Assembly (NCBI RefSeq): GCF_000428725.1
Contig: NZ_AUAM01000012.1
Span: 1-64,000, forward strand
Origin: Psychromonas aquimarina ATCC BAA-1526
Lineage (GTDB): Bacteria; Pseudomonadota; Gammaproteobacteria; Enterobacterales; Psychromonadaceae
Reading direction: 5' to 3'
DNA: 64,000 nucleotides
Part shown: piece by piece, positions 252 to 10,069 of the stretch
Layout: the number at the start of each line of letters is the position of its first letter
Numbering within the stretch: position 1 is the first letter of the stretch
The notes under the pieces: model-generated
What the model was told of the DNA's origin: nothing
What the model saw: the letters and a program-made list of their open reading frames with translations, nothing else
Database searches by the model: none
Translations under genes and position numbers: made by a program

Positions 252-325
252 AATCTGCTCCAGCTGTGATGCTAGTTATTAAAACAGATTAATCACTTAA
301 GATCGTGTCCGATTTTTGGGGACCA
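1..325 (-). mobile_element. IS3-family insertion sequence, one end only
   Basis: This is the upstream end of an IS3-family element that runs off the left edge of the window. It contains the start of an orfA transposase gene. Its likely terminus, read on the minus strand, begins TGGTCCCCAAAAATCGGACA at position 325, which resembles IS3-family terminal repeats (TG start, CCCC and ATCGGACA). The boundary is inferred from that sequence: the neighbouring NACHT gene reads straight into it and stops at 297. The other end and any target duplication are outside the window. Confidence 0.75.
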
Positions 326-3300
326 TTTCTAGGTCAACGACATTTAAATTTGAGCAATTTAAGTATTTAAGATTTGTACAATTAGATACTGCTGATAGCT
401 CTTCAATATCTGATGAACATAAACTCAAATATTCAAGTTCATTACAATTTGATAAAGCAGATATATCGGATACACCAGTGTAATCAAGTTCTAGTTTAAC
501 AATATTTAACATATATGAAATAGGCGAGATATCACTTATATCCGTATGAGAACAGTCAAGAAAAGTGATTTTCGTACAACACGAAAGTGGTGATAGATCA
601 TTAACAAAAGTAGAATAAAACTCAACTCTCTCAACATTAACAAGATTGATAAATACATCTAAATTAGTAACACTTGTAGCATTAAATTTAATCGTTTTAA
701 GCTCGACTAAATTACATAACGGTGAAATATCTTCAATATAAGTAGAAGAAAAATCGATATGTTTTAATTTTCTCAAACCTGAAACAGCGCTTAAGTTATT
801 TACACATGTATCGTAAATGTCAAGCGCAGTTAAATTATTTAATGTGCTGATAATATTGAGGTGTGTAGTATGCTTACCACGACAAATTATTTTTTTCAAA
901 TTCTTACAATTTGGCAAAAACTCTAAGTCATTTAAGTCATCATTATATGCCAAAACTGTCTTTACAGTATTAAAGTCGATCCCGTTTATAGGCTCTAGGC
1001 CTAAGGCGACTTGCCAATTTTCGATTGTGACTAAGTCAACATATTGAGATTTGTAATAAAGTTTTTGGCTTTGGCAAATAAATGCTAACACCTCCAATAT
1101 TTCTTTAGGGTAGCTGTCGACCCCTTCTGAAATAAGTAAATGTTCAAGATTAATTTCCAACGCTAATTCTGGAGCTAATTTCTTCAAACTGTTTGCTAAT
1201 TTTTCTACATAACTACTACGATTATCTTTCAAATAATCTAAGAGTAATAGGTACGATTCAGAAGTTTCTATTTTAATTAATGCTTGCGCACAATATAGAT
1301 CATGTTTAACAACTCGTGCTTTCTTAGGTCTTTTTAAGTAAGGTAATGCTAAATTACCAGAATCCCCGATTGCATCTTTAACTTTAGCATTTGGAGGTGG
1401 AATAACTTTAGGGATTATTTTCTCTAACCGCATAGAAAATGCTGGAGTTATTTCTCTCATACTTTCTTTACAACGTAATACTATTAGGTACAACGGTATT
1501 GCTTCAACATTTTTTTTATCACTCTCAAATTTGTTTGCAAGCTCTAAAATTGAAGTTAAAAAATTCTCATTATCATCTTTTGATTTTGATAAACCAACGG
1601 CTAATTGTATTGTTTCATGCCAGTAATCATTCGTTGCATTTTTCTTTAATAACTCCCAATCTTTATTCGATACTATGTATTCAGCAGTAAAGAACTCTTG
1701 AAATGACCGATGTGCAAATTGTATTTCAGCATTCCCAACTTTTTGTAATAACCCACTTCTTTCAAGGAAAAATCGTAACAAATCTTCTGCTGATAATTTC
1801 CATTTTAAATCAGGTATATCCAAAAGTTTTTGTTCTAAAATTAACCGTAGAGCGCTAGGTGATATCGACGTTTTTTCTTTTTTAGTCATATTTTGTGCAA
1901 TATCACATAAAAATGTCTGTTTATAACGGTAATCCAATAGATTAAAGTTATTTTCTTCAATTATCTTTCTTTCTCGGTCTCGATTATCAAGAAACATTCT
2001 AGAAGTTGATTCATAAAGGTCAGAGCGATCTCTTGGTAAATAACCGCTTCTGTCATGATGTAACATACAAATTACACCACATAATAATGGTGTTTGTGCC
2101 AGGTGACGTAATGAGTTCTGTAAAGATAGTTTTTGCTTTAACTCATCTGATTCAACTAATAATGCGTCCGGCTTAGTCTGATCATATTCTAACGCTATTG
2201 CATTATGCCAATGTGCAACAAAATCATTTTGTGCCTTCCTATCCATTGGTTGAAGCTCAATAACTTGAAATTTTGATTTATCAAGTGTTGTATCCTCATA
2301 TGCAGATGGCCGTGATGTCAGCACAAAACGATTACCTTTATATCTTTCACAAAGACTTTCAATCCACAAAACAACTTCCGATCGTCTTGTTTTAGGTACC
2401 TCATCAAATCCATCAATCATGAAAATAGCTCGCTTCTCTTCTATTACTTGAGAGGCCCATTCTTGATGCGATAATTCTGATTCAACATTTTCTACCATTA
2501 AGTCATAAAAATCAGGTTGTTCAGGTAATTCAGCATCATTCAACACTTTTCTTAGCTGAATTAATACAGGCACTTTCTTGTTCCATTCTTCATCCTGAAA
2601 TGCTTTCCTTCCACACTGAACTGTCAACCATTGCAATAATGTCGTTTTTCCTTGGCCTGCTTCACCTAAAATAACCAAATGTTCGAAATTAGTTAACGCA
2701 TCTTCAGTTGACATAATGCAAGTGTCATCAAACTCGTTAAATTCTGTTTCTGTTGTCAAAGAAATATAGGCAACAGTAAGCTGATATTTACGGGCGCGTT
2801 TACCAAAATTGACACCAAAAATTCGCAATTCATCAAAACGCCTTACTATGGCACGCCTATATTCACTTTCAATTAATGAACTTTCGTCTTTTTCTTGTTC
2901 TTTTGTTTGCTTCCAACTAGCTAGCTCTTCACGTAACTTTTTAAACAGTTCGGAATCATCTTCTAACTGTGTGATTAAATTTGATTCATTCCATGTAGGT
3001 AGTGCATTACTGCAATCTATAATAACTTCACATAACTCTTTTAATATCTGATCGAAACTTGGGGATGATACTTCCAGATATTGTACTTTTAACGAGCCAT
3101 AAAGAGCATGAGGTTCAAAGTTAATTTTATCTAATTGGTTATGATAAATTGGATTATTTTGTAGTATTGTAGCTAATTCATTAATCAGATGAATTTTTGT
3201 AGAGTGCTCTGCTTTTATTCCTAATAATCCCAAAGCCAATTCTACAACGTCATCAAGCAAACGTTCAAAAGCATTGCGCCCTTTTATTTTCCCTCTAGTA

Positions 3301-4373
3301 CCTACAATTCTCTGTAATTCCTCCGTATAAGATAAACCAACATCTGAACACAACCATATGTTCGCAATCGCTTTGACAATTTGTGGTGCTAAAGATTCAT
3401 AAAGTAAATCTTCAATTTCTTGGTTTTCTCTTTCTAGCCTTTCAACTTCGCTTACAGTACTAATCTTTTCATCATTTATAACACGTTCTTCTAATAGCTC
3501 TTTTTCCGAACGAGTTATCTCATTCACTAAAGAACTAATTAAATCGGGCAATTCATTAAAGTCTTTATACAACAATGGATTGACTTGTGCTTTTTTATAT
3601 AACTCTTTAAGGTCGGCAGGTAAATCTCGCCAATCTTGTTCTCGCATTACTGTAATTGAATACTGAAGCTTATTGAGTTTATTTTGTGATTCACATAATT
3701 TGTACCACTCAATAACACGAGGATCTAACATTGAACACCCAAAATACACTATTGAACGAGACAATAAATCATTATGGAGTTTTCCAATTAAAAATGGATA
3801 TTGATCTGAAAATTTTAGGTAACTATCTTCGTCAAATATCCAATTAGAAATATTATGATAACCACCATGTATTTTATATAGAGACAATAAGTTTGATTGC
3901 TCTAGTCCAATGTTTTGCTCTAAGGTTACTAGATTGTATCTACAGTTATTTTTGTCTAATGCATTCTCGAGCAATTGATCATAATTTGTTGTATAAATTT
4001 TATTCCAAGGTAAGTTAACCAAATCCACATGCATGCTACTAGCATCTTTTGGTAAATTAGTAAAAATACTAGCCAGTGTGGCATTTAGTCGACCGTAGCC
4101 ATTTTTAAAAGCAAACTCTTGCACCCAATGTGTAAAAGAAAACTTCGGGGAGTTAGTGGCAAGTGTTGAATCCCATGGGGTAAAATCAGGTAAATCCAAC
4201 AAACTTTTTTCTCTAATTAGCTTTATAAGATCAAGCGTAGTTGGGTAGCCAGATGAAACCGACAATCCTGCACCAGCCCATAGTATGGGACTAAATGACT
4301 CTTCCTTTTTGCCTATACGAAATATACTTATTAATGCTTTCCAGGTATCTGACTCTTTAAAACTGTGGCTCAT
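297..4373 (-). CDS. SIR2-NACHT-leucine-rich-repeat protein, NLR-like antiphage defence, 3' end replaced by IS sequence
   Basis: A 1358-residue STAND protein. The N-terminal SIR2-like domain (about residues 10-270) has FSPILWAGAGLSVSSGYP, TTNYDQLLE and the catalytic-type YKIHGG; such domains in defence proteins deplete NAD+. The NACHT NTPase follows: Walker A GEAGQGKTT near residue 570, Walker B FMIDGFDE near 655, then LTSRPS and FAHRSFQEFFTAEYI. From about residue 1165 there are roughly 22-residue leucine-rich repeats of the LxxLDxSxTxIxDISPL type, a likely sensor. The last residues (MVPKNRTRS) come from the end of an IS3-family element, so the native C-terminus is lost. I chose the ATG at 4373 because AGGAA lies 7 bases upstream; an ATG at 4424 is in frame but has no ribosome site. 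SIR2-NACHT architectures belong to the known bacterial NLR/Avs-like class. Whether the truncated protein still works is unknown. Confidence 0.85.
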   Translation of the reverse strand: MSHSFKESDTWKALISIFRIGKKEESFSPILWAGAGLSVSSGYPTTLDLIKLIREKSLLDLPDFTPWDSTLATNSPKFSFTHWVQEFAFKNGYGRLNATLASIFTNLPKDASSMHVDLVNLPWNKIYTTNYDQLLENALDKNNCRYNLVTLEQNIGLEQSNLLSLYKIHGGYHNISNWIFDEDSYLKFSDQYPFLIGKLHNDLLSRSIVYFGCSMLDPRVIEWYKLCESQNKLNKLQYSITVMREQDWRDLPADLKELYKKAQVNPLLYKDFNELPDLISSLVNEITRSEKELLEERVINDEKISTVSEVERLERENQEIEDLLYESLAPQIVKAIANIWLCSDVGLSYTEELQRIVGTRGKIKGRNAFERLLDDVVELALGLLGIKAEHSTKIHLINELATILQNNPIYHNQLDKINFEPHALYGSLKVQYLEVSSPSFDQILKELCEVIIDCSNALPTWNESNLITQLEDDSELFKKLREELASWKQTKEQEKDESSLIESEYRRAIVRRFDELRIFGVNFGKRARKYQLTVAYISLTTETEFNEFDDTCIMSTEDALTNFEHLVILGEAGQGKTTLLQWLTVQCGRKAFQDEEWNKKVPVLIQLRKVLNDAELPEQPDFYDLMVENVESELSHQEWASQVIEEKRAIFMIDGFDEVPKTRRSEVVLWIESLCERYKGNRFVLTSRPSAYEDTTLDKSKFQVIELQPMDRKAQNDFVAHWHNAIALEYDQTKPDALLVESDELKQKLSLQNSLRHLAQTPLLCGVICMLHHDRSGYLPRDRSDLYESTSRMFLDNRDRERKIIEENNFNLLDYRYKQTFLCDIAQNMTKKEKTSISPSALRLILEQKLLDIPDLKWKLSAEDLLRFFLERSGLLQKVGNAEIQFAHRSFQEFFTAEYIVSNKDWELLKKNATNDYWHETIQLAVGLSKSKDDNENFLTSILELANKFESDKKNVEAIPLYLIVLRCKESMREITPAFSMRLEKIIPKVIPPPNAKVKDAIGDSGNLALPYLKRPKKARVVKHDLYCAQALIKIETSESYLLLLDYLKDNRSSYVEKLANSLKKLAPELALEINLEHLLISEGVDSYPKEILEVLAFICQSQKLYYKSQYVDLVTIENWQVALGLEPINGIDFNTVKTVLAYNDDLNDLEFLPNCKNLKKIICRGKHTTHLNIISTLNNLTALDIYDTCVNNLSAVSGLRKLKHIDFSSTYIEDISPLCNLVELKTIKFNATSVTNLDVFINLVNVERVEFYSTFVNDLSPLSCCTKITFLDCSHTDISDISPISYMLNIVKLELDYTGVSDISALSNCNELEYLSLCSSDIEELSAVSNCTNLKYLNCSNLNVVDLEMVPKNRTRS

Positions 4374-4525
4374 GCACAAATTCCTATTTTTTTTAATGAA
4401 TTTTATAGATCCAATAAAACTCATGACTCAAGTATTAAATTTTGTTGATTTTTTAACGGCTCTAATTTAATTGAAGTTAGCTCCTGCTTTTACCAACAGG
4501 AAAACCAACTCCGCCCAATTTAACT

Positions 4526-5668
4526 TCAATTCTTAAACGTAATTTCCCGATGATAAGCGAGGTAATCCTGGTGCTCTTTTTTTAAGATAATTCCCATATT
4601 TTCACTGAGACCGAGTGCTTTGTAGTCGTCTAAACACTCTGATATGCGAATCTTGCCTTTGTCAGTAAAGGTGATGTAACCGCGGTCAAAGGCTTTATCA
4701 ATATTTGCCAGCAGCAGGAAACCATTATTAGGATCTAACCTTTCAATATCATTTGATTTTGACCAGGGTTTAATATGTGATGCAATTAAAAAATCTGTGT
4801 TGCTGTAACCCGTTAATGCGCATCCCTGCCAGTGATCAATAAGATCTGTTCTAAATTTTCCCTGACCTAGCCGCGTGTTAACTAAAACTGCTTTGTATGT
4901 TGCTGTTGTATCACCATCTTTTAGAATTTCTTCTATATCGTTATTGAGACTTGCCTGAGTAAGATCATCTAAAAAGACTTGATAGGATTTAAGGGCGGCA
5001 CTGTACATGCCCTTGCCTTTTGCATTTTTTACTTTAAATTCTTCTACCAGCATAACTTTTGCGGCGACCATGCTGTACACAGAGTGCGAGCTTATGGTCA
5101 TTAAGTTTGCTGTCGGAATACCGGCATCTTCAAGCCAGTTAGGAATTGAGCCTTTTAATGCGCCGATATAATTTTTAACGGTTTTATCCGACTTGCCTAT
5201 GGATAATGCCCAGCGTCTATATTGAATTTCTAGATCACCCAAATTATGCGTTAATGCCTCTTTTAACGACGATCGTGTTATCGGGCTTTTCAGGTAAGTG
5301 AATAGTTCATCATCAAGATATGCAAAATTCACACAACGCTGAATAAAGGCACTACTGGCAGATTTTGATTGTTCGAACTCTTTTTGGTGATCGGGTTTGA
5401 TATCGAGATGCCAGAATTGACTGCTTTGTAAATGGTAAAAAGGTAAGTGCGGCGTGTCTTGATCATTACCCTGTTTCAGCTGTTCAAAATAGGAGGTAAA
5501 AGCGGCTTTAAGCTGTTCATTGAATTGAATTCGGTTTTGAGTAATCCCCCCCTGCTCAATCAGATCAATAACAGCAAACATTAAACAGACTTTATGCGGT
5601 TTAGCATGGCCGTTAGAGCGGTCTGTACGTAAAGATTGAAACTTATCAAGGTAAAACTGTACTGTCAT
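4526..5668 (-). CDS. HNH endonuclease, ScoMcrA-like (probable modification-dependent restriction enzyme)
   Basis: A 380-residue predicted nuclease. The C-terminal HNH_2-type domain (about residues 280-350) shows CALTGY, ASHIKPW and NGFLLLANIDKAFDRGY. The N-terminal region has the pattern HAKPHKVCLMFAVIDLI ... LPFYHLQSSQFWHL, which resembles the DNA sulfur-binding domain of ScoMcrA-type phosphorothioate-dependent restriction enzymes; that assignment is from memory of the family pattern and is moderate. The gene starts on the last base of the upstream methyltransferase stop codon (TAATG), so the two are translationally coupled. AAGGA precedes the start. Together with the SIR2-NACHT gene it suggests a small defence region. 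A housekeeping HNH nuclease of unknown role is the alternative. Confidence 0.72.
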   Translation of the reverse strand: MTVQFYLDKFQSLRTDRSNGHAKPHKVCLMFAVIDLIEQGGITQNRIQFNEQLKAAFTSYFEQLKQGNDQDTPHLPFYHLQSSQFWHLDIKPDHQKEFEQSKSASSAFIQRCVNFAYLDDELFTYLKSPITRSSLKEALTHNLGDLEIQYRRWALSIGKSDKTVKNYIGALKGSIPNWLEDAGIPTANLMTISSHSVYSMVAAKVMLVEEFKVKNAKGKGMYSAALKSYQVFLDDLTQASLNNDIEEILKDGDTTATYKAVLVNTRLGQGKFRTDLIDHWQGCALTGYSNTDFLIASHIKPWSKSNDIERLDPNNGFLLLANIDKAFDRGYITFTDKGKIRISECLDDYKALGLSENMGIILKKEHQDYLAYHREITFKN

Positions 5669-6892: not shown

Positions 6893-6964
6893 ATGAAAGC
6901 CGTCAAACCAGTACTAGCACTAATCTTTATGTTCCTGGTCATGTCTGTATTCGCTACAGCTTAA
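6893..6964 (+). CDS. 23-residue hydrophobic peptide, unknown function
   Basis: A very short reading frame with a real-looking ribosome site (AAAGGAAACATTACG before ATG). The peptide starts MKAVKPVLALIFMFLVMS and ends VFATA: two lysines, a hydrophobic stretch, then a signal-peptidase-like ATA, so it is either a small membrane peptide or little more than a signal sequence. A strong hairpin begins 22 bases after the stop. It converges on the radical SAM gene at 7072. It could be a partner of that cassette or an unrelated small membrane protein; I cannot tell. Confidence 0.5.
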   Translation: MKAVKPVLALIFMFLVMSVFATA

Positions 6965-7071: not shown

Positions 7072-8865
7072 TTATTCCGCCCAGTAAAACTCTAAATATG
7101 GAAAAGGCAGGTTGATTGCCTGAATATGATAAAAGGCATTCTTTTTTTGTTTACTGTAATGGTATTCACGCAGCGTTTTTGTGGTGAAATAAAGATTATT
7201 ACGCACATCAGGCAGAAATAGCGCCTGATGCTGCAAAAAGAAAGGTCTTAAATCAAATAGATACCAGCCGTCTTTATTTTCAGACAACAGCTCAAAACTA
7301 TTTTTATATAAACTGTAGTCAACTATATGCTCCTGCTTTTCACGTCCTTCATCACCGTAAGTCACCATGGTATTTCTTAACAACATCAAATGAATGCAGT
7401 TATTGACCGGATCTTTACTGTGCAGACCAAAGATATCCTCTCTTACTTTGAGGATCACTGAGGCCTGTTTATTTAATAAAGCCAGGTCATTACTGTTATG
7501 AAGAACCGGGCTGGTTAACGCGTAGTCAACCCCGTCAACCTGCAGCGAAAAAAGTGTGTCACTATAGATAGTCTGCAGCACCTCATCAGCGGCTATTAAG
7601 CTGGTTAATGCATTGCTGTCTTCATATAATTCCGGCGTAATATAACGCGGTTTAACGGTTTCTATCTGATTCTCCTTAAAGCTTTGAATACTGTTTTTGT
7701 ATTTATAATTCGCGGCATACTGCTTTATGTAGCTCTCTTCATAAGGCGGATAGCGCTCCAGGTTGTCTTTATATAAAGCTTTCTGCAGTAAACAGGTATA
7801 GCTCTTAGTCAGCCCGGTCTGCTGACGTACAAATACACAGCCCTGATTACAATAAGGTAAATAGCTGCAGCTGAAACACTCCTGATCAGCCTGCAGGCGG
7901 TTTTCAATCGATTCAATAACCTGCCAGCCGTTTGCAATAATGTCCGTAATCGGCTGCTTATATAAATTACCGTAAAAGAACTGCCGTGAAGACTGCCCTC
8001 TCGGACATGAATACACATCCCCGTTACTCTGCAGCAGAAAAAATTTATCGCCGCAGTTCACCGCACTGCAGCAGAACTCCGGGGTAAACTCTTTAAACCA
8101 GTGCTCTTTTAGACCTTGCTCCAGCTCACTGCCGCTAAACTCAGAGGATAAGCGCTGATAAAAATACAGCTGCTGCTCTTGAGTCAGCATGCAGGCAGGA
8201 TCATTTTCCTGAGCAAACTTTTCACTGTTTTTATCGCTGTCAAAGGAGAACATAATATTAAACTTACTCATATCCAGACCTATGTCGTAATGAATATGTT
8301 TGATATCAGCAATAAATTCATCTAGATGGTCAAGATGTTCCCGGGTAACAACACAGGATATTTTTTTATGGTGCGGGTAATTTGCGAGTAATTTTAAGTT
8401 TTTGCGGATCTGCGCCAGTGTTGAGCGCCCTCTTTTATCTGTGCGGTATTTTTCATGCAGAAATAACGGCAAATCAACACTGCCGCTGATTGAAACCTGA
8501 TAATTCTCACACAGAGAGTAAATGCGGTCAAAATTAAACAAATTGGTTTTAATATGAATAGGGTTTAACGGATAACCCGCTTCTTTTATCTGAGCGCCGA
8601 ACTTTGCATAATAGTTTTTAGAAAATTCGAACAGTTCAGCCAGCTGCTGCGGTGGAATAGAAGTCGGCTCGCCGCCGTGAAAAGACAGATTAAAGGGAAT
8701 AACATCCTCATTTAAAAACTGCTGTACGGCATGCTCCAGTGTGCTGACTGTCTGCGAGGCTTTGTTTTTCTGCTCTGTACCTGTGCCTAAGTAACAGTAT
8801 TTACAGCCCATATTGCAGAAGTTGGTCGGCGCATATAAGAGGTGAATAAATTTTGGGGATGACAT
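7072..8865 (-). CDS. radical SAM/SPASM peptide-modifying enzyme with an extra C-terminal region
   Basis: A 597-residue enzyme. The radical SAM cluster motif CNMGCKYC (Cys17, 21, 24) binds the catalytic 4Fe-4S cluster, and HGGEPTSIP follows. A SPASM region (about residues 250-385) holds further cysteine motifs: CCSAVNCGDKF, GDVYSCPRG, CFSCSYLPYCNQGC. SPASM enzymes of this anSME/GrrM-like type modify side chains of peptides. The last ~210 residues (from about 390) are not part of the usual fold and I do not recognise them. The longest frame starts at a TTG (8871) overlapping the previous gene's stop; I prefer the ATG at 8865. It is third in an operon after an Asn-tailed small protein and a membrane protein, which points to RiPP maturation. 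The exact chemistry is unknown. Confidence 0.82.
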   Translation of the reverse strand: MSSPKFIHLLYAPTNFCNMGCKYCYLGTGTEQKNKASQTVSTLEHAVQQFLNEDVIPFNLSFHGGEPTSIPPQQLAELFEFSKNYYAKFGAQIKEAGYPLNPIHIKTNLFNFDRIYSLCENYQVSISGSVDLPLFLHEKYRTDKRGRSTLAQIRKNLKLLANYPHHKKISCVVTREHLDHLDEFIADIKHIHYDIGLDMSKFNIMFSFDSDKNSEKFAQENDPACMLTQEQQLYFYQRLSSEFSGSELEQGLKEHWFKEFTPEFCCSAVNCGDKFFLLQSNGDVYSCPRGQSSRQFFYGNLYKQPITDIIANGWQVIESIENRLQADQECFSCSYLPYCNQGCVFVRQQTGLTKSYTCLLQKALYKDNLERYPPYEESYIKQYAANYKYKNSIQSFKENQIETVKPRYITPELYEDSNALTSLIAADEVLQTIYSDTLFSLQVDGVDYALTSPVLHNSNDLALLNKQASVILKVREDIFGLHSKDPVNNCIHLMLLRNTMVTYGDEGREKQEHIVDYSLYKNSFELLSENKDGWYLFDLRPFFLQHQALFLPDVRNNLYFTTKTLREYHYSKQKKNAFYHIQAINLPFPYLEFYWAE

Positions 8866-8867
8866 AA

Positions 8868-9677
8868 TCAACTTGCCTGCTTAAAAGGATCACTGCTTAA
8901 GCGGTGTTTCAAATACAGTGTAAAACCCGCCATTACAACGGCCGATATTATCTGCATCACCAGGTTCGGCAGAACAGGCAGCACAGCGGCGGCGACTGCC
9001 GACATAATAATTAACCAGATAAATAATAAAATAGTATCCCGGCGTTTTTTAACCAGCGTTTCCAGCAGTAAGGAGCTGTCGCCATAAAAGACCATAAACC
9101 CGCTTTTATCTTTTTTGTTAGCCGTCAGGGTCACACAGTTTTTATTGACGCTGTTCACGGTTCCCCAGACATTAATCCGGGTTGTTTTATCCGCCCATTT
9201 TTCTTCTATGGAATAGTGCTGATATTTCGGTTTAGCTAAGGCCTTAACGGCATCACAAGGAGGCTCATTGCTGATAATGGTTGTGCTGTTTAAATTGACA
9301 AAGGCTTCAATATTATTGGCAAAACCTAACTGTACCACCTGTTTGCCGTCGCTGATTAACAGCGGCAGATGATCATTACTGTCTTTAAAAATAACCGGAG
9401 AATGGGTCTGCATTCCTTTGCCTGGTTTTTTCATTTTAGTGGTAAATACGGCACGGACAACAGCGCCCCAGTAAACACAATTTACCTTATTAAAAGGCGT
9501 TTGTGTTTCCGGCAGACTGAACGAACCTTGAAAGCGAATATAATCACCGACTTTTACCTGGTCGTTTAAATATACCGCCCTGTGCATCTTATTTGAGCGT
9601 TTCATACCGCGACGGTAAATACCTATAGTTTTATAAAGGTGATAGACAATAAACAAAGCGATAACCAGATATAACAT
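8868..9677 (-). CDS. membrane protein, GIDE/MULAN-like, middle gene of the RiPP-like operon
   Basis: A 269-residue protein with an N-terminal membrane segment (LYLVIALFIVYHLY, residues 2-15) and a C-terminal hairpin of two segments near residues 215-255 (ILLFIWLIIMSAVAAAVLP and LVMQIISAVVMAGFTLYL). The soluble middle has a pattern like VKVGDYIRFQGSF ... CVYWGAVVRAVF, which recalls the GIDE domain of MULAN-type proteins; this likeness is tentative. GGAA lies 7 bases before the ATG. It starts 30 bases after the Asn-tailed gene and ends at the start of the radical SAM gene, so it is co-transcribed. It could be the exporter, anchor or processing factor for a modified peptide; no protease motif is visible. 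Confidence 0.65.
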   Translation of the reverse strand: MLYLVIALFIVYHLYKTIGIYRRGMKRSNKMHRAVYLNDQVKVGDYIRFQGSFSLPETQTPFNKVNCVYWGAVVRAVFTTKMKKPGKGMQTHSPVIFKDSNDHLPLLISDGKQVVQLGFANNIEAFVNLNSTTIISNEPPCDAVKALAKPKYQHYSIEEKWADKTTRINVWGTVNSVNKNCVTLTANKKDKSGFMVFYGDSSLLLETLVKKRRDTILLFIWLIIMSAVAAAVLPVLPNLVMQIISAVVMAGFTLYLKHRLSSDPFKQAS

Positions 9678-9706
9678 AATTGAATTCCATTTCTTAACGC
9701 AATAAC

Positions 9707-10069
9707 TTAGCCGTTATTGTTACCGTTATTATTATTGTTATTATTGTTGTTATTATTATTCGCCGAGTGCATATCCTGAGCAGCGGCAGAACCGACAAAC
9801 GCACTGCCGATAAAGTACTGCGGGGCAATTCTTGAGACTTTCAGACCGTCAAATGTATATATGCTGTTATCTGCATCACCGCCGCAGGCAATGCTGTTGA
9901 CGATCTGGTCATGTTCATAAAAATAGATAATAGAACGTTTTACAATGATATGTTTATGGCCAATATCAGTGCTGAAAAAGGTGTCAATAACAGGTTTTAA
10001 CTGCTCTGACTTATCCGCTAATGATGCCCTGTCTAAAAACAGCTGAGTTTGTTGGGAAGTATTCTGCAT
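9707..10069 (-). CDS. candidate RiPP precursor with a C-terminal Asn/Gly-rich tail
   Basis: A 120-residue protein starting MQNTSQQTQLFLDRASLADK and ending in twelve consecutive asparagines, then G, NNN and G. The tail is coded by a mixture of AAT and AAC, not by one repeated triplet, so it is not a simple microsatellite. The first ~100 residues look folded (HKHIIVKRSIIYFYEHDQIV, GLKVSRIAPQYFIGSAF), longer than most leader peptides. It is the first gene of an operon with a GIDE-like membrane protein and a radical SAM/SPASM enzyme, hence the precursor proposal: leader plus Asn/Gly core. The longer frame begins with TTG at 10084; the ATG at 10069 is the likely start. An Asn-rich linker on a structural protein is the alternative. 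Confidence 0.6.
   Translation of the reverse strand: MQNTSQQTQLFLDRASLADKSEQLKPVIDTFFSTDIGHKHIIVKRSIIYFYEHDQIVNSIACGGDADNSIYTFDGLKVSRIAPQYFIGSAFVGSAAAQDMHSANNNNNNNNNNNNGNNNG

Follow-up and report, generated by a model that had tools for sequence, protein, structure and literature searches.

The window analysed here is a stretch of 64,000 nucleotides from Psychromonas aquimarina ATCC BAA-1526 (contig NZ_AUAM01000012.1, positions 1 to 64,000). It contains three adjoining genes on the minus strand, named A, B and C in this study. Gene A encodes a small protein with a terminal run of asparagine (Asn) residues, gene B encodes a membrane protein, and gene C encodes a radical S-adenosylmethionine (SAM) enzyme with a SPASM domain. 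A first-pass annotation made from the letters of the window had described this three-gene arrangement and proposed a ribosomally synthesized and post-translationally modified peptide (RiPP) system with a modified Asn/Gly core; the three open reading frames (ORFs) were confirmed as described. Sequence comparison suggests that C is probably an anaerobic radical maturase of Asn-ended protein tails, with A as its bacterial target and receptor-binding fibres as its targets in phages. The features of the locus are listed in Table 1.

Table 1. Coordinates of genes A, B and C and of their predicted parts in the window.
Feature	Position	Strand	Description or basis
Gene A	9707-10069	minus	120 aa, ATG at 10069, stop codon included; presumed substrate
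Gene B	8868-9677	minus	269-aa membrane protein
Gene C	7072-8871	minus	Radical SAM/SPASM enzyme; 599 aa from TTG 8871, 597 aa from ATG 8865
A residues 1-85, predicted folded alpha/beta domain (two helices, five strands)	9815-10069	minus	AlphaFold model
A residues 104-120, tail NNNNNNNNNNNNGNNNG, presumed modification site	9710-9760	minus	Identity, codons, genome uniqueness
B hydrophobic segments, about residues 1-20 and 213-257	within 8868-9677	minus	Hydropathy
C residues 9-200, radical SAM core, C19-x3-C23-x2-C26	8272-8847	minus	PF04055; profile match to anSME 4k36
C residues 267-360, SPASM part, eight invariant Cys	7792-8073	minus	Alignment; TIGR04085
C residues 413-599, extra C-terminal domain ending NAFYHIQAINLPFxxxEFYW	7075-7635	minus	Conservation

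The genes lie close together, as annotated, with small corrections to the spacing. The gap between the A stop and the B start is 29 bases rather than 30, and B and C overlap only if C starts at TTG 8871, as ATG 8865 leaves a 2-base gap after the B stop. In the relative from Psychromonas ossibalaenae (L021) the B stop is at 5004 and the C start at 5007. ATG 8865 is the likelier start because it matches this arrangement. Ratios of nonsynonymous to synonymous substitution rates between the window and L021 were 0.06 (A), 0.09 (B) and 0.07 (C), so that all three genes are under purifying selection.

Translation of A bears out the annotated C-terminal end, ...SANNNNNNNNNNNNGNNNG, which consists of 12 Asn, Gly, three Asn and Gly. 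Within the protein, the tail shows the strongest conservation. Mean pairwise identity was 91% over the last 15 residues and 26% over residues 1-95 (ten loci; L021 was left out as near-identical). The last 16 codons differ between the window and L021 by two synonymous changes and no amino acid change. Both AAT and AAC codons are used in the Asn run of 11/11 A genes, therefore the run is not a pure trinucleotide repeat and is kept as protein. A pattern of eight consecutive AAY codons was found in one place in the 5.53-Mb genome, which is gene A (5 overlapping matches); the reversed control pattern gave 4 matches at unlisted places, which presumably represent this tract read in another register.

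Relatives of C were obtained from a pattern scan of named genomes (L021-L027), then from searches at the level of order, class and phylum. C was found in 4/394 genomes of the order (E<=1e-40), in 3/369 genomes of the class including the window's own (E<=1e-30), and in 1/398 genomes of the phylum, the window's own. A first search of relatives matched 19/60 at E<=0.001, strong matches being limited to the window, G016 and G045. One match from that search (L019, E=8e-4) was taken as chance, its locus showing by eye an AraC-like regulator and other unrelated genes. An A profile run over the 394 genomes of the order recovered the four genomes that carry C and, in addition, one weak fragment (E=0.004) containing a stop.

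The chromosomal loci comprise the window, L021, L022, L023, L024, L025, L026, L027, L003 (G045), L051 (G625) and L052 (G613). G016 and L021 are the same Psychromonas locus and were counted once, as were G303 and the Aliikangiella record of L026, which were taken to be one locus. An adjacent A with an Asn run of 10-16 residues and the end NNG was present in 11/11 of these loci, in which C shows 43-95% identity. Thus a precursor-like gene lies beside the presumed modifying enzyme, as is looked for in RiPP systems, in 11/11 loci. The gene order is A-B-C in 7 loci, C-A-B in L027 and L051, and C-A in L003 and L052. L051 lacks the enzyme N-terminus and L052 ends 142 bases past A. The gene-order groups agree with the enzyme tree, in which L003 and L052 pair at 100/100. 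The first-pass annotation had pointed to two findings that would speak against its proposal, enzyme homologues lacking an Asn-rich neighbour and free loss of the tail among relatives. Neither was encountered, because A adjoins C in every chromosomal locus found and the tail is the most conserved part of A.

The pairing bears on another view of the Asn run, in which it is a low-complexity, prion-like or solubility segment and C acts on B, on a metabolite or on some other protein. Poly-Asn tracts do occur in prion-like proteins. A and C, however, co-occur even without B and stay neighbours through three gene orders, and the Asn ends of the phage relatives described below are too short for a prion-like tract. 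We regard this view as very improbable.

The N-terminal part of A appears to be folded. In an AlphaFold model built from 8 sequences the mean predicted local distance difference test (pLDDT) score was 75.2; residues 1-80 were mostly confident, block means ranged from 64 to 94 in residues 1-85, and the tail was disordered, with pLDDT below 50 in residues 90-107. The model supports the long folded leader of the first-pass annotation, which had suggested this structural check. A search of the model against PDB folds gave no match at E<=0.001, and no family was found for A in NCBIfam, PHROG or PADLOC. PDB sequence matches of the A profile (EED and maltose-binding protein entries) were confined to the Asn-rich end and were taken as low complexity. 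Cys is absent from the Asn run in 11/11 A proteins, and A has no conserved Cys position.

C carries the CxxxCxxC and SPASM Cys motifs that had been annotated. The radical SAM Cys (19, 23, 26) are present in 16/17 aligned enzymes, the exception being L051, which is cut by the contig start. The SPASM Cys (267, 273, 289, 332, 335, 341, 345, 360) are present in 17/17. Two auxiliary clusters are expected in the SPASM part. C passes the cut-offs for TIGR04085 SPASM (40.4 bits, cut-off 27), PF04055 Radical_SAM (35.6 bits, cut-off 29.5) and, also in Pfam, Fer4_12, and falls just under the cut-off for PF13186 SPASM (19.2 bits, cut-off 21.5). In NCBIfam 48 families matched at E<=1, and among the best 25 of the 48 only the general SPASM domain model passed its cut-off. 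The PADLOC label Viperin (E=4.8e-7, residues 16-105) was rejected as similarity of the core only. None of the scanned family libraries (NCBIfam, Pfam, PHROG, PADLOC) names an A-C system.

C gave a full-length match to phrog_1802 (E=2.4e-48, residues 14-597), a phage family described as 'radical SAM domain-containing protein' with no function given. PDB matches among those listed covered 262-485 aligned columns of the 599 residues. The C-terminal domain, which is shared by bacterial and phage enzymes, has a conservation of 0.72-0.77 over residues 551-599. An AlphaFold model of C (14 sequences) had a mean pLDDT of 80.7; residues 579-587, inside the conserved NAFYHIQAI stretch, were below 50, as might be expected for a segment that becomes ordered on its substrate.

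The nearest solved enzyme, by profile and by predicted fold, is anSME (PDB 4k36-4k39; TIGR03942). Like C it combines a radical SAM domain with a full SPASM domain, and it gave the best PDB profile match (E=8e-20) and the best predicted-fold match (E=8.8e-15, TM 0.72 by target length). In the fold search it was followed by the sactipeptide enzyme 5wgg (CteB), then by ChlB and SuiB. The nearest solved folds are peptide or protein maturases, the first of them, anSME, with bound substrate peptides. C nevertheless scores 86.2 bits against a TIGR03942 cut-off of 349.45, has Pro where 4k36 has Asp, the catalytic residue of anSME, after the SPASM Cys of VY-x-C, possesses the extra C-terminal domain, and has a partner that is not a sulfatase. 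Cyclophane maturases (GrrM/OscB, XyeB, AmcB, YhhB) and the daropeptide/dynobactin enzymes (DarE, DarW, DynA) are also SPASM maturases, and sit beside their substrate genes. C is far below the cut-offs of their models (among the best 25 of 48), and aromatic residues are absent from the Asn run of A. Sactipeptide and ranthipeptide maturases (PapB, SCIFF maturase; PDB 5wgg/5why) share the radical SAM/SPASM fold and join Cys to another residue. C is below the cut-offs for these as well, and the A tail lacks Cys, as A lacks any conserved one.

A second branch of the enzyme family was found in phages. In a tblastn search with C, a homologue 34.6% identical over 98% of the length was identified in Campylobacter phage CAM-P21, and also in a plasmid record from C. 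coli, which contains the same tail genes. The CAM-P21 genome paper is reported to have been retracted over a first sequence that was incorrect or incomplete (PMC10720507); the record analysed here is version 2. The same arrangement was present in 12 IMG/VR loci, whose enzymes are 90-100% (seven) or 63-69% (five) identical to that of CAM-P21. The Campylobacter phage enzyme matches phrog_1802 at E=6.4e-142. In the enzyme tree the chromosomal enzymes form a clade separate from the phage branch, and they are accompanied by the poly-Asn protein A instead of a fibre.

The phage enzymes sit in the tail-fibre region of Mu-like, Campylobacter-type phages. The operon runs from the baseplate genes through the tail fibre to a protein of about 210 aa (phrog_10241 for CAM-P21) and the radical enzyme, in most cases with a DUF1353-like gene after it. 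The CAM-P21 fibre starts with PF12571. On comparison, no homology was found between phrog_10241 and A. The fibre ends in Asn-Asn-X in 14/14 phage loci (10 distinct fibres): TNNNNY (eight), SNNNNY, CNNNNN, GNNF (three) and GNNS. For one of the loci, L037, the contig fragment covers only the end of the fibre, and L045 and L046, which have broken enzyme frames, were kept in this count and left out of the enzyme alignments. The fibre tips are of about three sequence kinds, 17-33% identical between kinds (alignments of at least 20 columns), and all keep the Asn-Asn-X end. Among 151 distinct ORFs of at least 100 aa in the phage loci, 12 end in NN or NNx, namely the 10 fibres and 2/141 others. Fisher's test of fibre ends against other ORF ends gave 5e-14, a value that ignores kinship of the loci and is overstated because related loci were counted as independent.

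Eight related loci of Campylobacter, Helicobacter and Sulfurimonas phages that lack the enzyme served as controls. The fibre ends in Asn-Asn-X in 0/8 of these; the ends are SFMELR (four), SFIRYS (two), SVLEFS and TADAEL. A DUF4376-type or unannotated gene follows the fibre, and tblastn found no full-length C homologue in the 8 loci. The CJIE1-type H-fibre and its DUF4376 (Tfa-like) chaperone occupy the same place in the tail operon, and the fibre N-terminus is 91-93% identical in the Campylobacter controls. In the CJIE1 type DUF4376 follows a fibre ending in SFMELR, whereas in the enzyme loci phrog_10241 and the radical enzyme follow a fibre ending in Asn-Asn-X. The radical enzyme and phrog_10241 thus hold the place of the chaperone. 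In the available portions of PMC7882524 and PMC11464564, the DUF4376-type H-fibre is a receptor-binding protein with the major outer membrane protein as its target, and of two such fibres one was active only with its chaperone. Chimeric pyocin and pull-down assays exist for this enzyme-less fibre type (PMC11464564, in the part available). From the position of the genes and the fibre ends, the Asn-Asn-X terminus of the tail fibre would probably be the target of the phage enzyme, phrog_10241 standing where the fibre chaperone is usually found.

Several observations weigh against the proposed role of the family in tail maturation. A virus with a full-length enzyme (L048, 38-39% identity), which lies downstream of tail-like genes, has no Asn-Asn-X fibre; it stands outside the 14 fibre loci and makes 1 miss in 15 phage loci. 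This virus is more distant, with a long branch in the enzyme tree and an unsure placement. The enzyme frame is broken near the C-terminus in L045 and after about 150 residues in L046, and the fibres of both keep Asn-Asn-X; either sequence error or loss could account for these frames. Phage ends hold 2-5 Asn compared with 10-16 in A tails, so that one chemistry for both is not certain. The last residue of the fibre varies (G, Y, F, S, N), and the fibre loci are related to each other. We consider it slightly more likely than not that one SPASM family, phrog_1802 and its chromosomal sister clade, covalently modifies Asn-ended C-terminal tails, those of a poly-Asn protein in marine bacteria and of the receptor-binding fibre in Mu-like Campylobacter-type phages.

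Other viral loci were inspected in the course of these searches. In L048, a pattern of Asn-Asn-Asn-X followed by a stop gave 3 matches and 3 in the reversed control, hence no excess. The same virus has at L048:4268-4372 a 34-aa ORF rich in Thr, Asn and Cys, with the end NCTNNSNH. This ORF continues in frame past the stop of a tail-like ORF of 172 aa, which itself ends Cys-rich, and precedes a 200-aa gene and then the radical enzyme. Distant phage SPASM proteins (L049, L085-L095) were set aside, being 21-33% identical over part of the query, with no C-terminal motif in L085-L090 and L049 among the matches listed. Two IMG/VR loci of this group (L088:4717-7194, L090:5144-7227) encode, upstream of a SPASM-type radical SAM gene, a tail-region protein made largely of His-x-Asp repeats (HTDTHTDTAHVDTHGD...). 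The C-terminus of the radical SAM protein is itself His/Asp/Ser-rich, and the tail protein may be another radical SAM substrate. Two further IMG/VR loci (L087:5578-7792, L089:5524-7987) have a radical SAM gene (544 and 558 aa) followed by a protein of 199 or 266 aa whose C-terminal half consists of Cys-Gly repeats (CSGGCKGGCTSDCGGCGGSC...), a layout in these viral contigs that resembles a RiPP system. The T4-like Campylobacter phage CP220 (FN667788) did not show the same system in the 49 kb looked at, where its radical SAM genes lie near amidinotransferase and sugar-transferase genes. That cluster (L099:10691-24767), with amidinotransferase and sugar-transferase-like genes, belongs to a seemingly unrelated family. 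CP220 has 11 radical SAM genes, which its authors call highly unusual in the part of PMC2853527 available.

We consider the Asn tail of A very likely to be the substrate of C, because it is the most strongly constrained part of A and is shared in kind with the phage fibres. The Asn end could also be a handle, such that the oligo-Asn terminus of A or of the fibres is held by C while a different site is modified, for instance in the conserved FDGxKV segment of A or elsewhere in the fibre tip. FDG is nearly invariant in A, and the phage ends have in common with one another only Asn-Asn plus one residue, both of which would suit a handle. A grip would not need 10-16 Asn kept at 91% identity, however, and no counterpart of FDGxKV was noticed in the fibres, though no search was made for one. 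Modification away from the Asn end therefore seems unlikely to us.

The fate of the modified tail is a separate question. In a classical RiPP pathway C would modify the tail, a protease would cut, and a small Asn-rich product would be released, with the A domain as a true leader. A SPASM maturase adjoining a short protein with a conserved C-terminal stretch fits such a pathway, and the closest NCBIfam models among the matches listed include RiPP maturases. By eye, no protease or exporter is common to the listed flanks of L021-L027, although a protease elsewhere in the genome is possible, and the phage relatives keep the Asn end on a structural protein. We judge release of a small product to be improbable. 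The phage Asn end being on a tail fibre suggests a modified protein tail, not an excised peptide, and from the phage branch and the absence, by eye, of protease or export genes common to the flanks we lean towards a product that stays protein rather than being cut free. Hence the first-pass proposal holds for the pairing of A with C and for the conserved tail, and gained no support in its strict sense, in which a leader is cut off and a small product freed.

That C modifies the tail, and by which chemistry, is inferred. C would recognise A by docking to its folded N-terminal domain, which we think somewhat likely, and the C-terminal domain of C would serve as a docking surface or active-site lid. 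The flexible Asn tail would enter the radical SAM/SPASM barrel, where C would oxidise Asn residues repeatedly by means of the 5'-deoxyadenosyl radical and the two auxiliary clusters would take up electrons. As a guess about the product, Asn-Asn carbon-carbon or carbon-nitrogen cross-links or dehydro-Asn might be formed, a tentative assignment that we hold with less than even confidence. Thioether and cyclophane links inside the run are impossible because the run and the end hold only Asn and Gly. Cross-links or dehydro-Asn are preferred to epimerisation of the tail, which is doubtful. Cys can act as hydrogen donor in epimerisation, and that route is unsupported here because every Cys conserved throughout the bacterial and phage enzymes is already assigned as a cluster ligand.

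B is not a constant component of the A-C system. B-like genes lie beside A and C in 9/11 loci, with none in G045 and none found in G613. When five genomes were searched with a B profile, matches came from G016, G303 and G625. G045 (99% complete) and G613 had none; G613 is 82% complete, and its contig breaks off 142 bases beyond A. Hydropathy agrees with a membrane protein, as annotated, whereas the label GIDE-like is not sustained: 1/8 B proteins touches Pfam GIDE (PF12483), at E=0.031, and the B of the window had no match, the gathering threshold not being reached. B had no match among PDB sequences at E<=1. Where present, B might tether A and C at the membrane, a role we would put forward only tentatively.

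Two other ORFs of the window were seen by eye. An ORF of about 23 hydrophobic residues (MKAVKPVLALIFMFLVMSVFATA) lies on the plus strand at 6893-6964, convergent to the end of C, and a matching DNA stretch is present in L002 in another frame. A 1375-aa ORF on the minus strand (297-4424) appears to encode a SIR2-like, NTPase (GEAGQGKT), leucine-rich-repeat protein of an antiphage-defence kind.

The general arrangement, in which a SPASM enzyme adjoins a substrate-like protein, is known. In the libraries scanned there is no named counterpart for the Asn tail, for the folded substrate, for the extra C-terminal domain or for the connection with phage fibres. Among the matches listed from the open-access literature, with subscription papers largely outside, no poly-Asn radical SAM substrate and no radical SAM-modified tail fibre was found. 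The Asn run offers no Cys or aromatic residue, therefore radical chemistry on it would widen the known scope of SPASM enzymes. If the bacterial branch is as proposed, iterative cross-linking or desaturation of Asn in the tail would be a chemistry without a named class. If the phage branch is as proposed, it would be, to our knowledge, the first modification of a virion receptor-binding protein by a radical enzyme. The phage link gives a testable idea for a phage gene family that has had no assigned function, namely that a phage-borne radical enzyme would finish the end of the receptor-binding fibre.

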